Shown: positions 37,336 through 56,251 of the stretch, piece by piece
Numbering within the stretch: the first letter of the stretch is position 1
How the letters are laid out: every line of letters starts with the position of its first letter
Virus record (IMG/VR): IMGVR_UViG_3300025276_000036
Location: 1-59,527 of that record
Reading direction: 5' to 3' (one strand)
From: a virus
Length of the DNA stretch: 59,527 bases
Notes under the pieces: model-generated
Databases searched by the model: none
Seen by the model: the letters and a program-made list of their open reading frames with translations, nothing else
Told to the model about the DNA's origin: nothing
Program-made: the position numbers and the translations under genes

Positions 37336-38355
37336 ATGGCCACTATAAGGAAGCGTGGAAAGGCAAGTTGGCAAGCACAAATTCGCCACATCGGATTTCC
37401 CAATCAGTCAAAAACATTCAAAACAAGATTAGCCGCTCAACGATGGATTAATTCGACGACGTCGGATATGGAAGCCGGAGCGTGGAACGATCTTCGTTTA
37501 CAACGATCCATCTTTGTTAGCGACCTTCTTCGTCGTTGGCGAGACTCGCTACACCCAAACACAAAAGTATTCTGCGACAGCAAATTACACACCGTTGAAT
37601 TTCTAGCGCGAGAACTAGAGGGCGTCTCTCTGGCGGCTTTTGATAATGAGTTCATTATGGAGTATGCAAAGCGCAGGTCTGAAACTGTTCGCCGCAGCAC
37701 ACTCGGCACAGAGCTAAGTTATTTGTCCCAGTGCATAGACTTTTGTCGGACTATCTTTAAGACACCCCTGCCCTTTAATCCAGTCCACGAGGTTCGTGGG
37801 GTGTTGGGCCAACTTAATATGGTAGGTGGATCGCGGTGCGTAGAGCGTAGACTGAGAGACGGTGAGTACGAATTATTGCAGGACATAGACATGACGCCTT
37901 GGCTAGGCCCTGTAATGGACATTGCAGTGAACTCTGCGATGAGGCAGGGGGAGATTTTTAGGATGAAGTGGTCGGATTTAGATTTTAAGAAAGGCACTAT
38001 CTTTATCAAGGATCGAAAAGACCCTAAAGAGAAAGAAGGTAATGACCAGATAATACCTATGTTTCCGCCCGTGAGAGAGGCGCTCCTACGTGCACGAGAG
38101 TTTACTGGGGACGATGGTAGGGTTCTTCATGTAACATCAACAAAGAGTATCGGCGATGCTTTTAGACGAGTACGTATTAAGGCAGGGATTTACGATTTAC
38201 GCTTCCATGATTTAAGGCATGAGGGTGTAAGTAGGTTGTTCGAGAAAGGTTGGAGCATCCCCCAAGTGGCCGCTGTATCTGGCCACAAGGATTGGACGCA
38301 ACTTAAACGGTATACGCAACTTAAGCCAGGGGACTTGCTCACTGCGTATGGGTAG
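37336..38355 (+). CDS. int: Tyrosine site-specific integrase
   Basis: Codes for 339 residues. An AP2-like arm-binding N-terminus (IRKRGKASWQAQIRHIG), a SAM-like core-binding domain at about 65-170 and a catalytic domain follow. Catalytic residues are R203 (in MRQGE), H291 and R294 (HDLRH), H317 (GHKDW) and nucleophile Y326 (RYTQL). It inserts the phage into the host at attB. The ribosome binding site AAGGAG is strong. The attP region lies just upstream, and a convergent regulator gene follows. Confidence 0.95.
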   Translation: MATIRKRGKASWQAQIRHIGFPNQSKTFKTRLAAQRWINSTTSDMEAGAWNDLRLQRSIFVSDLLRRWRDSLHPNTKVFCDSKLHTVEFLARELEGVSLAAFDNEFIMEYAKRRSETVRRSTLGTELSYLSQCIDFCRTIFKTPLPFNPVHEVRGVLGQLNMVGGSRCVERRLRDGEYELLQDIDMTPWLGPVMDIAVNSAMRQGEIFRMKWSDLDFKKGTIFIKDRKDPKEKEGNDQIIPMFPPVREALLRAREFTGDDGRVLHVTSTKSIGDAFRRVRIKAGIYDLRFHDLRHEGVSRLFEKGWSIPQVAAVSGHKDWTQLKRYTQLKPGDLLTAYG

Positions 38356-51945: not shown

Positions 51946-52311
51946 TCAGTACTCCGAGGGGAGCATGTGTGTGTAGCTGCCCCATTGATTTTTAACAGAC
52001 CATATTTTGATTTTTGTTAATGGAAAAGTGGTGTAGGTGAGCAGTTGATTAGCAATGATATTATTGTCCATGTCATCAAGCTCTAATGTAGCCGTGCTGT
52101 CTTCTTGTACTGTTAGAGTTGATTGCACGTAGTCTTCGCTATGCTGATCTAAGTGGCTTTGAATGGCGTCAAACAGCCAGTAACACTGCCCTTTATCGGC
52201 AAGGTATTTCGTACCGTCGGTTAACATGCTTTTTGAGAGTACGCTGTATCGCGTGAAGGTTTCTGACCCGCTAAAATGCGCTAAGTTTGTTTCAAGTTCT
52301 GAAGGTGTCAT
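51946..52311 (-). CDS. DUF6876-like protein
   Basis: Codes for 121 residues from the ATG at 52311. The run TDGTKYLADKGQCYWLFDAIQSH followed by FPLTKIKIWSV and the closing HMLPSEY matches DUF6876, common on phages and mobile elements and of unknown function. It overlaps the zinc-ribbon gene by ATGA and lies just downstream of the ubiquitin-like operon. Confidence 0.7.
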   Translation of the reverse strand: MTPSELETNLAHFSGSETFTRYSVLSKSMLTDGTKYLADKGQCYWLFDAIQSHLDQHSEDYVQSTLTVQEDSTATLELDDMDNNIIANQLLTYTTFPLTKIKIWSVKNQWGSYTHMLPSEY

Positions 52312-52511
52312 GTGATTATTTCCCATTCGTTAGAGGTTGGTTCTGTTTGCATTTCGTATCTGCCACATGTCCGGCAATCGACAGAGAACTCTTCTTCTAA
52401 GTTGGGTCTGTCTACTACAAATCGTTGGTTTTTATAGTCCCATACAGCATTTAGATCGTTGAAAACGATATCAATGCTTTGGCAATTAGGACATACGAAG
52501 TTTCTTTTCAT
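52308..52511 (-). CDS. 67-residue zinc-ribbon protein next to the Ubl operon
   Basis: Two CxxC pairs, CPNC at 8-11 and CRTC near 46-49, form a rubredoxin-like zinc ribbon. It starts 12 bases after the JAMM gene ends, so it is probably co-transcribed. A substrate adaptor for the conjugation system is possible but only inferred from position; it is not a RING finger. Confidence 0.6.
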   Translation of the reverse strand: MKRNFVCPNCQSIDIVFNDLNAVWDYKNQRFVVDRPNLEEEFSVDCRTCGRYEMQTEPTSNEWEIIT

Positions 52512-52523
52512 ACTAGTGGCTCC

Positions 52524-53408
52524 TTAATAGCTATAGTCGTCAGGGTTAATGCGGTTCATTCCGTAAGGTATGTCGCCTAGATCGTCGTCGTTCCATAGCA
52601 GGTCGTTGCCGCTGTAAGCGGTTGCGCTGTACGGAGACATCGTCTTGTCATAGTTACTGATGCCGCTTGCTAAAGGCGATACAAAGTTAGGCCGTTTGTT
52701 TTTATAATTTGGTACTGAGTACGCTTGTCGTTTGACTTTCTCACTGATCTGCTTGTTAAGATCGGCGATAACATCAAGCGATATCGGGGGGTAATAGGTT
52801 CGTACTTCAACGCAGTTGTAGGCGATGCCTTCATCGCGCAAGTAAAGGTCAACTTTGATCTCGCCGCGCTTGTTCATAATGCCGCGTATAAATACTGGGC
52901 ATGTCGTTAGGAACTCTTCGACTTGTTTCTCGTCTTGTCCACTGGGTCGGCAGTCCATGTTGACGTGGCTGTGGAACCAGGCATAAATTGTGCTCGGGCA
53001 TATGTCTGCTGACATGGCTTCTGAGAACGCAGTGGCAAGAGCTGATGCTGAGATGTCAGTCTCAACGGCTGTTACTTCTTGCTCTGGCAAGAACACTTCT
53101 TTAAGCAGGTAGTCAGATTCTGATAGCTTTTCAACTGAACAGAACCAACCGACCTCTAACGCACATTTGTCAACGATGTGTTGCATTTTTTGGTATGTTT
53201 CTGGTAGCACAAACACGACGGGGTCGAGCTTTGGTGCAGGTGCTTCTGGTCCTTGGATAATGGTTGTAGTTTGGGCCATGCCGCCGGTGTCAACTGAGTA
53301 AGGGCTGACGGCTGCGGGTAGTAGTGCGATCCCTGCGGGTGGTGTTTTGGTTTTGATCTTGGTTGATGCAATGTGTTGCTTTGCTTGGAATGATTTTCGC
53401 TTAGTCAT
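52524..53408 (-). CDS. JAMM/MPN metalloprotease (deubiquitinase-like)
   Basis: Codes for 294 residues. The first 60 are Pro/Thr-rich and probably flexible. The JAMM zinc site is complete: E85 (EVGW) and H146-S-H148-x7-S156-x2-D159 (HSHVNMDCRPSGQD). The last 80 residues are Asn/Tyr-rich. JAMM enzymes remove ubiquitin-like proteins from targets or trim their C-termini. Its start overlaps the E1 stop (TAATG), tying it to the operon. It has no NlpC/P60 domain and is far from tail genes, so it is not a lambda K-type tail protein. Confidence 0.88.
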   Translation of the reverse strand: MTKRKSFQAKQHIASTKIKTKTPPAGIALLPAAVSPYSVDTGGMAQTTTIIQGPEAPAPKLDPVVFVLPETYQKMQHIVDKCALEVGWFCSVEKLSESDYLLKEVFLPEQEVTAVETDISASALATAFSEAMSADICPSTIYAWFHSHVNMDCRPSGQDEKQVEEFLTTCPVFIRGIMNKRGEIKVDLYLRDEGIAYNCVEVRTYYPPISLDVIADLNKQISEKVKRQAYSVPNYKNKRPNFVSPLASGISNYDKTMSPYSATAYSGNDLLWNDDDLGDIPYGMNRINPDDYSY

Positions 53409-54091
53409 TAGATAGATCCTTTTGAAACAATAAGGGGTTGCAGGAAAATGTTGACTTTGGGGTCAACTGCTATGGGATTGGTGCACTGCAATATGAACTG
53501 CCACACTGCAAGGTTCGCGATAATCGATGCGGTTGTACCGACACTGATACTGCTACCGCACGGTGATACTTCACCAGGCTCGTCGTCTGATACAAGCGTA
53601 TTGATCCACGCTTCACGCATATCTTTGTCATTAGGGTCAAACGTAAAGATATTGCCGTAGCTAGAGGCCATTCGCGTTTCGATCACACATTTTAATGAGT
53701 AGTTCTCAGCGCAATGCGAATCAAAAATCTCACGACGGCTTTGCATAGTGTCAGTGAGTAAGAACACTGTGCCGCTAAACATATCAATGGTATTTGAATC
53801 GACTTTCTCGTTTAAAAAACGCATTGATGGTGGAGGGGTTTCGCCTGTTTTATATCGATAATACGCTGCTAGTGCGGTTACTTTTGGCAGGCCAATATGA
53901 GTTTCTAAGTAGATTTGATTCGCAAGATTATGCGATTCGACTACGTCAAAGTCATAGACTGTAATGTTCTTGAGACCTAGCTCTACTAGTGCAAGCCACA
54001 AGCGTGAGCCTGTTGCGCCTGCACCAATAATAGTTATGCCATGATCGTTTTGCTGTGGATCAAATATAGATTGATGCCGTGTAATATTCAT
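53408..54091 (-). CDS. E1-like ThiF-family adenylating enzyme
   Basis: Codes for 227 residues. The ATP site is GAGATG at 23-28, with D47 and D49 in YDFDVVE, HNLANQ (N55, N58, Q59) and K70; LTDTMQSRR gives D114 and R119. The canonical Arg of NxxRQ is Ala here. C178 in SPCGSS before GTTASIIANLAVW is the best candidate thioester Cys, and CxxC zinc pairs are absent. The enzyme would adenylate the C-terminus of the 71-residue Ubl at 56036 and pass it to the E2-like protein. ATGA overlap with the E2-like gene. Confidence 0.9.
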   Translation of the reverse strand: MNITRHQSIFDPQQNDHGITIIGAGATGSRLWLALVELGLKNITVYDFDVVESHNLANQIYLETHIGLPKVTALAAYYRYKTGETPPPSMRFLNEKVDSNTIDMFSGTVFLLTDTMQSRREIFDSHCAENYSLKCVIETRMASSYGNIFTFDPNDKDMREAWINTLVSDDEPGEVSPCGSSISVGTTASIIANLAVWQFILQCTNPIAVDPKVNIFLQPLIVSKGSI

Positions 54092-55935
54092 TCGTTTTCT
54101 CCAGTGAGTGCTTCTAGAAAGTTGATGGTCCGTTCGCTAACGTTTTCTCCAAGCTCGGGAACAAGTGCGTCTAGGAACGCGTTTAGTGACGCTTGCTCTG
54201 GATCTTCGGTTATGTTCAGGGCTACATCTTGAAACGCTTTTTGTCGCTGTAAAGGTAGGAGGTTATAAGCGCTCATGTTGTCGTGTTTAATATACTTGCC
54301 GTCACATACCAGGCGGTAGGTTACAACTAGCCAATTAGCGAACGCCTGCCATCCTTCAAGAAAACCTGTAGGGGCGGACCCATGCATATCTTTGTAAAAC
54401 TCGCGGTACTGTCGTTGTAATCCGGGACTGGCTTTTAGGTCCTCTATGGCGAGAAAATAAGCTTCTTTTATCTGCTCTTGGTTTATATTGATGGCCTCGA
54501 CGGGGGTCGTGAAGTTGCGTTCCAAAGCTTCTATATGGTCGGCATAGAAGTTCCACCGTTCTAAGAGATAGTTTTGTAATTTACTGGAAGTAAATGGCTC
54601 AAGCTCTACGGTCACGCCGTCATTGCTCCATTTACCGTCTACAAAGATCATGCGCTCATTGTGGGTGTAGTACCTGCGGTCGTATGTAAGAGCTTCTTGG
54701 TGTGCAATAGGTGTTGGCAGATTGTTCAGGCTATACCTAGCACGCGTGTTGAGGCACTTTTGTTTTTCTTCTTCAACGCTTCTAAGAGACGCCAGATGGT
54801 GTCTAACAAGATAGTTTCTCGCCCACGGTGCTGCGGCTTCGGCAATAGTGTGGCAAATTTTCCTCTCAATGGAGGGTGCTTCGGGATCTAAGATTAGACC
54901 GGCTTGGTTCTCTAGAAACATGAGTGCGAGCGCGTGTGGCACGATGGTTCGGTTATTTTGGTGTACATAAATTTGGCTTATTTGACGGGTTAGCCAGAGT
55001 ATGTCTTCAAAGTCAGGGTGTCCTTCGTTGTATTCTGGTTGCGTCTCTAACACTTCGGGCGGTAAATGATAGGCAAGGCTATCGTGTGCGCTTTGGAAGT
55101 CTGCGGCGTTGTATAGCCCTGATATCCAGTCGGAGTAGTGGAAGGCGGGGTCGCAGCCAAACTCGAAGTGTGGGGTGTTGGGGATGCAAGCCCTGCTATA
55201 AATACAGTTTCTGAGTGCTCCATGCGTTCCATCGCTTATACTTTCGCAGTGCAATTTGACAAGTTCTTTCTCTGGTGCCCAACGATAGAACTTGCGTCCG
55301 GCGCAGTCATCGGTATTGTATTGGCGGAGGTACATAAGCAGTAATATTACTTGCAATGGTATGTCCATCGCGGCACGCGCTTCGGTGATAGGGGGTCCAA
55401 AGTCACCTAAGCAAGGATCATTTGCGCTGATCCAATGCGGGTGCATTAATTCAGAACCGTCGAAGCCTTGGTAATAGACGCCAACATCTTTTTTGGGGGT
55501 AAGTCCGCACCTAAAGCTCGGGGCACCCGATTGAAGGTCTTCGGACCATTTGATATGCAATACTAGCCCAGGGATTGCTATTGATGTGTTTGGTTCGCGG
55601 CCTGCGTCCTCAAGTATGGCTATCGCGTGTTCTTCTTGGCTCTCATCAGCGGGCTTCATAATAATGGTTTCAAGCGTTAATGAGATATGCTTCTTGCGCA
55701 TGATTACGCTAGAGACGCCGTCCATTAGCAATAGCTTGGAGCGTAATTCTTCTTTTTCGTAGCTTACTTTTACGTGCGCGTTATCTAAGATGTCCCGTAA
55801 GCTGTCAAGGATGACCGCTGTACTCTCGTAATGCATACGTCCTAATATGCCGCGCGTAAAAGTGTTTAACCGCCCATGTATTTGAGGGTTGAGCGATTTA
55901 AACGTAATTAATTTGTCTAAAGTATCGGAACTCAT
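54088..55935 (-). CDS. Large E2-like (RWD/UBC-fold) conjugating protein
   Basis: Codes for 615 residues from the ATG at 55935 with AAGGAG. Residues about 40-220 look like an E2 fold: strands, then HPHW at 165-168 and ANDPCLGDFG with a candidate catalytic C175 ten residues after H165, then a helix and YLRQYN...FYRW, equivalent to the E2 HPN...G-x-C-L signature. Residues 230-615 are helical, with several Cys/His and a KxLNTRARYSL region, and match nothing I know. E2 enzymes carry the Ubl as a thioester to the target. It lies between Ubl and E1 genes. Confidence 0.72.
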   Translation of the reverse strand: MSSDTLDKLITFKSLNPQIHGRLNTFTRGILGRMHYESTAVILDSLRDILDNAHVKVSYEKEELRSKLLLMDGVSSVIMRKKHISLTLETIIMKPADESQEEHAIAILEDAGREPNTSIAIPGLVLHIKWSEDLQSGAPSFRCGLTPKKDVGVYYQGFDGSELMHPHWISANDPCLGDFGPPITEARAAMDIPLQVILLLMYLRQYNTDDCAGRKFYRWAPEKELVKLHCESISDGTHGALRNCIYSRACIPNTPHFEFGCDPAFHYSDWISGLYNAADFQSAHDSLAYHLPPEVLETQPEYNEGHPDFEDILWLTRQISQIYVHQNNRTIVPHALALMFLENQAGLILDPEAPSIERKICHTIAEAAAPWARNYLVRHHLASLRSVEEEKQKCLNTRARYSLNNLPTPIAHQEALTYDRRYYTHNERMIFVDGKWSNDGVTVELEPFTSSKLQNYLLERWNFYADHIEALERNFTTPVEAININQEQIKEAYFLAIEDLKASPGLQRQYREFYKDMHGSAPTGFLEGWQAFANWLVVTYRLVCDGKYIKHDNMSAYNLLPLQRQKAFQDVALNITEDPEQASLNAFLDALVPELGENVSERTINFLEALTGENE

Positions 55936-55983
55936 GACACGACTCCTTCGTGGCTGATTGAAATAGGTATTACAATGTATATT

Positions 55984-56024
55984 CCCCAACTAATAGCGCA
56001 CCCAGATGTGGGCTATTAGCGGGG
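55984..56024 (-). promoter_or_regulatory. Strong hairpin between Ubl and E2-like genes
   Basis: CTAATAGC (55990-55997) pairs with GCTATTAG (56012-56019), extended by outer CCCC/GGGG and an inner CAC/GTG. It begins 12 bases after the Ubl stop. There is no U-tract, so it is more likely a processing or stability element or a partial attenuator that would raise Ubl above E2/E1/JAMM. Confidence 0.6.
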
Positions 56025-56035
56025 AGGTACTACAG

Positions 56036-56251
56036 TTAGCTGTTACCTTTAGCGCTCTTGGCGATGACGATGTTCTGTCTGTCAGATAACTCAGTGCTAA
56101 AGTCGTCGGTTTGGTTTCCGTCGAGCGTTAGGATGTTTCCAGACTCTACGGTCAGACCTGACGTAATCAGTGCGTCGTTGATAGTAGCTCCGTCATTAAG
56201 AACGACTTCGCGTACGGCACCTGGAGCTTGTACAACTTTAATATTCAACAT
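56036..56251 (-). CDS. Ubiquitin-like beta-grasp protein (ThiS/MoaD type)
   Basis: Codes for 71 residues with a ThiS/MoaD-like plan: strand LNIKVVQ, strand VREVVL, helix TINDALITSGL, strand NILTLDG and a final IVIAKSAKG strand. The C-terminus is KGNS rather than GG; trimming of two residues would expose a Gly. Genes for E2-like, E1 and JAMM proteins follow on the same strand, so it is the probable modifier. Its leader contains an operator site and a TAGGAAATACCATTATG start region. Confidence 0.78.
   Translation of the reverse strand: MLNIKVVQAPGAVREVVLNDGATINDALITSGLTVESGNILTLDGNQTDDFSTELSDRQNIVIAKSAKGNS

Follow-up and report, generated by a model that had tools for sequence, protein, structure and literature searches.

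The virus record IMGVR_UViG_3300025276_000036 from IMG/VR (59,527 nt; this whole stretch is called the window here) carries a cassette of four genes encoding a ubiquitin-like protein (Ubl), an E2-like protein, a ThiF-type activating enzyme (E1) and a JAMM isopeptidase, which is likely a phage-encoded, self-contained system for conjugation and deconjugation of the Ubl that acts in the way proposed below. The genes are located on the minus strand (56251-52524) in the order Ubl-E2-E1-JAMM and are tightly packed in the list of open reading frames (ORFs): those of E2 and E1 overlap by ATGA and those of E1 and JAMM by TAATG, and a gap of 100 nt separates the Ubl ORF from the E2 ORF. A first-pass annotation of the window had described this arrangement and had read it as a complete conjugation/deconjugation set. 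The ORFs confirmed the adjacency, the overlaps and the coordinates, and completeness is supported by a predicted beta-grasp fold of the Ubl, a predicted E2-type fold and the catalytic residues of E1 and JAMM.

Proteins of the cassette

When the window proteins were compared singly with the libraries, E1 was the sole protein recognised (Pfam ThiF, 1.4e-19). Structure models were made of the Ubl and of the E2-like protein, both as single chains. The Ubl (56036..56251, minus strand) has 71 aa and its AlphaFold2 model, based on the window's own sequence, is a beta-grasp fold (EEHEE) with a mean pLDDT (predicted local distance difference test) of 91.5; the nearest solved folds in the PDB are MoaD, Urm1, SUMO2, SAMP1 and the ubiquitin of Caldiarchaeum subterraneum. 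Fourteen of 32 family members matched Pfam ThiS, 14 Ub-Mut7C and six SAMP2, and the best match of the family profile in the PDB was SAMP2 (6.3e-6), which shares the PDB entry 5lda with the JAMM1 matched by the JAMM profile. The window Ubl ends in ...AKSAKGNS, with Gly69 as candidate conjugated residue, and K68-G69-N70 (56042..56050, minus strand) is the presumed recognition site of JAMM and E1. The AKGN tail is kept in most marine relatives and many Ubls end in AKGN(x). Moreover, KG-N is found at the tail of long-tailed Ubls (loci L088 and L110) and forms the junction in head-to-tail double Ubls (L192, L193 and L200), a placement that would be explained by JAMM cutting after KG. In the Xanthomonas jumbo phage PhiXhv-12 (L002 2712-7464), which encodes an 892-aa E2-like protein and E1, the Ubl has a terminal GG as encoded, and a search of the whole genome (227,648 bases) found no JAMM. 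L077 (2488-3492) has three Ubl genes in tandem; the first two lack the AKG tail and belong to a subfamily of their own.

The E2-like protein (54088..55935, minus strand) has 615 aa. Its start is the ATG at 55935, which is preceded by AAGGAG; an alternative upstream TTG at 55989 is less likely. The model is confident at residues 61-225 only (55261..55755, minus strand; block means of pLDDT mostly 81-95), and this part is predicted to have an alpha-beta-meander-alpha arrangement. In a Foldseek search of the PDB with this domain, 13 of the 14 top matches were E2 enzymes, with E-values of 0.04-0.4; the model is thus consistent with a UBC-type fold with a catalytic cysteine, at a weak E-value. The remainder of the protein is helical, poorly predicted and absent from most relatives, whose E2 protein often has only 270-340 aa. 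Therefore, the first-pass annotation of the 615-aa protein as E2-like stands for the domain at about residues 61-225, but its “giant” E2 is a domain of normal size that carries a variable helical extension.

The putative active site of the domain has the form HPH-x7-C, in which H165 and H167 precede C175 (H165-P-H167...C175, 55411..55443, minus strand). P166, H167, C175 and G177 are invariant in 24 aligned homologues. The strict motif HPHx3-16CxG was present in 40 of 70 E2-family members compared to a mean of 0 after shuffling, and a looser form in 60 of 70 compared to 5.8 in shuffles; these counts are so far above the shuffled sequences that chance is excluded. In a profile comparison, HPHWISANDPCLG of the window aligned on HPNVFTAGTICLG of a bacterial UQ_con protein, exactly at the active site, with an hhalign probability of just 8.6% and an E-value of 0.004. 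The bacterial protein is a genuine UQ_con member (Pfam 3.7e-11); one of 31 E2-family members touched Pfam UQ_con. Profiles that included the helical extension found coiled coils in the PDB, and a trimmed profile found nothing useful. Because these profile searches were uninformative, the E2 assignment rests on the model, the motif and the context. A fold search of BFVD with the E2 model gave no informative match, and all E2s together gave an alignment whose diversity precluded its use as scan query.

E1 (53408..54091, minus strand) has 227 aa and a single adenylation domain. Its profile matched Uba1 (2.5e-9), MoeB, Cap2 and UBA5 in the PDB. The nucleotide-binding GAGATG is at positions 23-28; none of the 83 distinct relatives deviates at its GxG or at D47, D49 and N55, and Q59, K70, D114 and R140 are nearly invariant. 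C178 (53558..53560, minus strand), the presumed thioester cysteine, is kept in all 79 relatives that have a letter at this position. In the E1 tree, the window protein is located inside a phage clade of 26 rows with a support of 98/98. The JAMM/MPN+ protein (52524..53408, minus strand) has 294 aa. Prok-JAB was matched by 16 of 30 family members, and the profile found Rpn11/PSMD14 (2.6e-7), CSN5 and archaeal JAMM1 (6e-5) in the PDB. H146 and H148 of the HSH zinc motif (52965..52973, minus strand), S156 and D159 are each missing from no more than one of about 87 readable members, and E85 is present in 74. The motifs that had been read from the E1, JAMM and E2 sequences are therefore at the places given for them and are conserved in relatives.

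Recurrence of the module in phages

Scans of viral contigs with the single window proteins E1 or E2 gave no matches. A search with the primase of the window revealed 80 related phage loci from metagenomes, three of which contain the operon. With an E1 profile, 44 viral and 17 genomic loci were found, and iterated profiles run on all ORFs of these loci identified Ubl, E2 and JAMM beside E1 in nearly all phage loci. E-values obtained on the ORF sets apply to small sets, and training of the models used the loci of the E1 scan; the JAMM-seeded scan is a separate retrieval with a different gene. It yielded 66 viral loci, 45 of which have all four genes, and the three loci without E1 are loci or contigs that end at that point. 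The two scans thus converge on the identical four-gene module. The first-pass annotation would have been given up if neither a UBC nor a beta-grasp fold had been predicted, or if E1 and JAMM occurred without these partners; both folds are predicted, and E1 was found at 63 of the 66 JAMM loci. The survey of relatives that it called for showed that co-occurrence is kept, but the gene order varies. Ubl-E2-E1-JAMM is found in the window and two close relatives, Ubl-E1-JAMM-E2 in most of the nearest further relatives, and Ubl-E2-JAMM-E1 in the human-gut phage MT835544, Flavobacterium phage FpV4, Dulem virus 41 and many others. The contigs that bear the module range from a few kb up to 207 kb. In MT835544, the gene immediately downstream of the module (L004 6888-8222) encodes a reverse transcriptase, identified by visual inspection of its YADD motif.

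Among annotated phages, E1 is encoded in 29 Flavobacterium, three Xanthomonas and one Erwinia records, and a more distant E1 query added 29 Bacteroides records, including the crAss-like PhiCrAssBcn isolates. The genes of PhiCrAssBcn22 and bajarodcaudo virus 1 are arranged as primase, Ubl-fusion, a protein with HSH..PCTG, JAMM, E1, a protein X and uracil-DNA glycosylase, which is followed by an exonuclease in PhiCrAssBcn22. Profiles support E1 and JAMM (3.4e-62 and 1.5e-48, respectively, or better) and, in one of the two, Ubl (4e-14); E2 was identified by motif and position only. The block extends over L227 2371-6726 (Bacteroides phage PhiCrAssBcn22) and L228 2580-6711. In the crAss-like records, E1 carries the label “thiamine biosynthesis protein” or “E1 enzyme family protein” and the other module genes are called “hypothetical”. 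Across loci, genes encoding a family-A DNA polymerase, primase, a RecE-like exonuclease and uracil-DNA glycosylase are repeatedly found at distances of up to 7 kb from E1. Since it is also present in cultured phages of Flavobacterium and in crAss-like phages, the module seems not to be restricted to temperate phages.

Clusters were also seen outside the viral records. A Lysobacterales metagenome-assembled genome has a bacterial cluster of E1, Ubl, an HPN-type E2 and JAMM that is possibly Bub-like (L136 7851-10641). E1/Ubl/E2 clusters on contigs binned as cellular (uncultured bacterium, L132 7968-10599, with JAMM; Saccharibacteria, L133 3504-5263) may derive from prophages or from contaminating phage DNA, or else represent a bacterial version. 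The genome scan also returned E1-like genes of Methylococcales; these resemble ordinary MoeB, have no partners and were set aside.

The phage of the window encodes a tyrosine integrase (37336-38355) and a repressor (39588-39004) and is therefore probably temperate, in line with the first-pass annotation; terminase, portal and major head protein are encoded as well. Megablast with the window gave no closely related phage. The cassette lies upstream, with respect to transcription, of genes encoding a family-A DNA polymerase, a DUF5906/VapE-type primase, a PD-(D/E)XK exonuclease and a helicase. A 67-aa zinc-ribbon protein encoded directly after JAMM (52308-52511, minus strand) was weighed as an E3, but it is absent from the nearest relatives. 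The DUF6876 gene that adjoins the cassette (51946-52326, minus strand) is also present in module-free relatives and, therefore, is not part of the module.

Proposed mechanism and role

From the sequence motifs and the predicted models, the following course of conjugation is quite likely. JAMM would trim the Ubl after ...AKG, and E1 would adenylate the exposed C-terminal glycine and accept the Ubl on C178. The Ubl would then move to C175 of the E2 domain, where H165 and H167 may stand in for the classical HPN motif. E2 would link the Ubl to its target without an E3, most likely to a lysine, and JAMM would take it off again. Target choice most likely lies with the variable helical extension of the 615-aa protein, and the targets would probably be proteins of the phage or the host that act on the phage genome at an early stage of infection. 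Since the module is constantly located in the replication block across unrelated phages, with a parallel in PRTRC operons beside partition genes, we tentatively prefer a role in replication or host takeover, with proteins at replicating phage DNA or takeover targets being modified, and rank it above defence against competitors and, further down, counter-defence. In general terms, it is conceivable, with the same reserve, that many unrelated tailed-phage lineages, crAss-like phages included, encode a dedicated Ubl cascade for modifying proteins at the replicating phage genome, which would be the viral equivalent of SUMO- or PCNA-type signalling and would differ from every Ubl defence system of the host.

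Several observations weigh against this interpretation or parts of it. Of the nearest primase relatives, 30 had 6 kb or more of upstream sequence and only three of these contain the module, which therefore is accessory in the phage group of the window; this would also agree with a role in defence or anti-defence. The E-values of the E2 domain in Foldseek are weak (0.04 or worse), most of the 615-aa model is of low confidence, and sequence profiles of the E2 family reached no eukaryotic or known E2 significantly. The arginine of the NxxRQ motif of MoeB and PRTRC is found in none of the 83 phage E1s (Asn in 65, Gly in 12), which requires some difference in how ATP is bound. One gut-type phage group (L004, L199, L215 and relatives) keeps the motifs of E1 and JAMM but has Ubls that terminate in K-x-(D/N/E)-N-A without a C-terminal glycine, and two Ubl genes in L106 (4470-4986) end in AKSAS and AKSAA, with serine at the place of the presumed acceptor glycine. 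Linkage through glycine therefore cannot be universal.

The conjugation chemistry outlined above could also protect the lysogen if the prophage tagged structural components of rival phages, in the way that Bil modifies tail tips (PMC11354881, PMC12135933). The temperate nature of the window phage, the accessory distribution among close relatives and the known function of Bil, which has the four activities in common with the cassette, fit this role, but the cassette is inside the replication block and not at a site of prophage-expressed cargo, and the crAss-like and Flavobacterium phages, for which lysogeny is not shown, carry the module as well. In addition, PADLOC, whose E1-E2 models matched the nucleotide-binding part of the window E1 weakly, assigned none of E2, JAMM and Ubl to a defence system, and we regard protection of the lysogen as rather unlikely. 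Counter-defence is less probable still. Host defence systems of the Ubl type exist (PMC10097602, PMC13373217) and the JAMM motif is intact, so that host Bil, Bub or type II CBASS might be disturbed, for example by de-tagging through JAMM or by competition for E1 or E2. However, a complete cassette with its own Ubl exceeds the needs of a counter-enzyme, E1 and JAMM almost always co-occur, and none of Ubl, E2 and JAMM has a match among host defence families.

Two further explanations concern the chemistry itself. The Ubl might be a sulfur carrier that is thiocarboxylated by E1 and matured by JAMM for thiolation of nucleotides or tRNA, as by ThiS/MoaD; the QbsE/QbsD/QbsC trio is a comparable sulfur-carrier pathway. 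The ThiS and Ub-Mut7C matches of Ubl members, the ThiF superfamily of E1 and the nucleotide-metabolism genes nearby in phage genomes would agree with this, but the E2-type domain with its conserved HPH..C is a constant fourth partner and no recurrent sulfur-transfer gene was recognised among the module neighbours, which makes a sulfur carrier improbable. Least probable of all is that the 615-aa protein is a scaffold with a UBC/RWD-like domain and not a catalytic E2: the sequence signal is weak, many members are divergent and ten of 70 have not even the loose motif, but C175 is invariant in the 24 aligned homologues and HPH aligns with HPN.

Bacterial Ubl conjugation is at present seen chiefly as a means of host defence (Bil, CBASS, Bub), and a complete viral cascade would reverse this picture. 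The module is widespread in phages, including abundant ones of the human gut, yet overlooked, and proteins called “thiamine biosynthesis” or “hypothetical” are re-annotated in Flavobacterium, Xanthomonas and crAss-like genomes. As the cascade is conserved across dozens of divergent phages, some of them cultured, what phages tag becomes testable. The literature that was searched, largely without subscription papers, described no phage E1-E2-Ubl-JAMM module, lambda gpI/gpK and host systems being the only ones found, and the crAss-phage literature that was checked does not mention the module.

Comparison with known systems

Bacterial operon types 6a-6e were described by Iyer et al. 2006 (PMC1779556). 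Type 6d has the gene content that is now annotated as PRTRC on plasmids. PRTRC (TIGR03736/TIGR03737) has the four activities in common with the phage module, and so far the likeness to PRTRC and Bil noted by the first-pass annotation holds; membership fails on several defining features. Both PRTRC and the phage module have a C-x-G motif at the E2 cysteine and a short Ubl with an (x)KG tail, and both are located on mobile replicons beside replication or partition genes. The window order Ubl-E2-E1-JAMM differs from the plasmid order ParB-E-C-F-B-A-ThiF, but the order of many phage relatives, Ubl-(helical+)E2-JAMM-E1, equals C-F-B-A-ThiF of PRTRC; the first-pass annotation had called the window order unlike the systems known to it. 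For comparison, ten PRTRC or PRTRC-like regions were fetched. Their E1s form a clade of their own (support 100/98) apart from the phage clade and have the NxxRQ arginine that the phage E1s lack. PRTRC-type E2s have no histidine before the cysteine but one after it (PMC1779556); likewise, the PRTRC_B alignment has no histidine where the window E2 has H165 and H167 before C175. The window E1 scored 25.3 bits against PRTRC_ThiF (TIGR03736), below the cut-off of 144.75, and PRTRC_B (TIGR03737) had no match in the window at E<=10 and none among 31 E2-family members; altogether, none of the PRTRC models reached its cut-off in the window. By hhalign, phage and PRTRC E1s are related (99.5%) and JAMM moderately so (79%), whereas E2 and Ubl are unrelated; Ubl and PRTRC_C gave a probability of 0.1-0.2% and have the C-terminal xKG alone in common. 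Among that part of the window neighbours which was scanned, no ParB-related, E or F gene was found. Profiles, E1 tree, E2 histidine, gene order and Ubl profile all argue against it and PRTRC membership was rejected, but the phage module and PRTRC may have a deep ancestry in common. A PRTRC-type operon was seen on a phage record, Burkholderia phage BgVeeders33 (L157 2474-6397). Its ThiF is inside the plasmid PRTRC clade and, therefore, phages probably acquired Ubl modules at least twice.

Like the window cassette, BilABCD has Ubl, E2, E1 and JAMM in one operon and no E3 gene. However, BilA has two Ubl domains and the window Ubl is a single domain of 71 aa; BilD comprises an inactive and an active adenylation domain and a Cys domain (PMC11354881), unlike the single-domain window E1 of 227 aa; and the CEHH residues of BilB (Cys, Glu at +6, His at +8 and His at +13) have no counterpart in C175-LGDFGPPITEARA of the window, which has HPH..C. 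Since the architectures of Ubl, E1 and E2 all differ and no Bil model matched, membership in Bil was rejected. Type II CBASS, or operon types 6a-6b (Cap2), and Bub share the E1/E2/JAB logic, but E2 and E1 are fused in type II CBASS/6a-6b and are separate genes with a dedicated Ubl in the window. The known phage pair of Ubl and JAB is lambda gpI/gpK (PMC1779556; PMC12908700). In this tail-assembly pair (TAPI/TAPK), too, a phage Ubl is cleaved by a phage JAB peptidase, but it has neither E1 nor E2 and belongs to a tail module, whereas the window cassette is in a replication block. The archaeal SAMP2/JAMM1 and the ubiquitin-Rpn11 system of C. subterraneum, which has a RING E3 (PMC5654768), are, by profile and fold, among the nearest solved relatives of Ubl and JAMM and are small complete cascades as well, but these systems are cellular and the phage module is viral. 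In sum, we file the cassette as a variant of the bacterial Ubl-conjugation operons that stands outside PRTRC and Bil.

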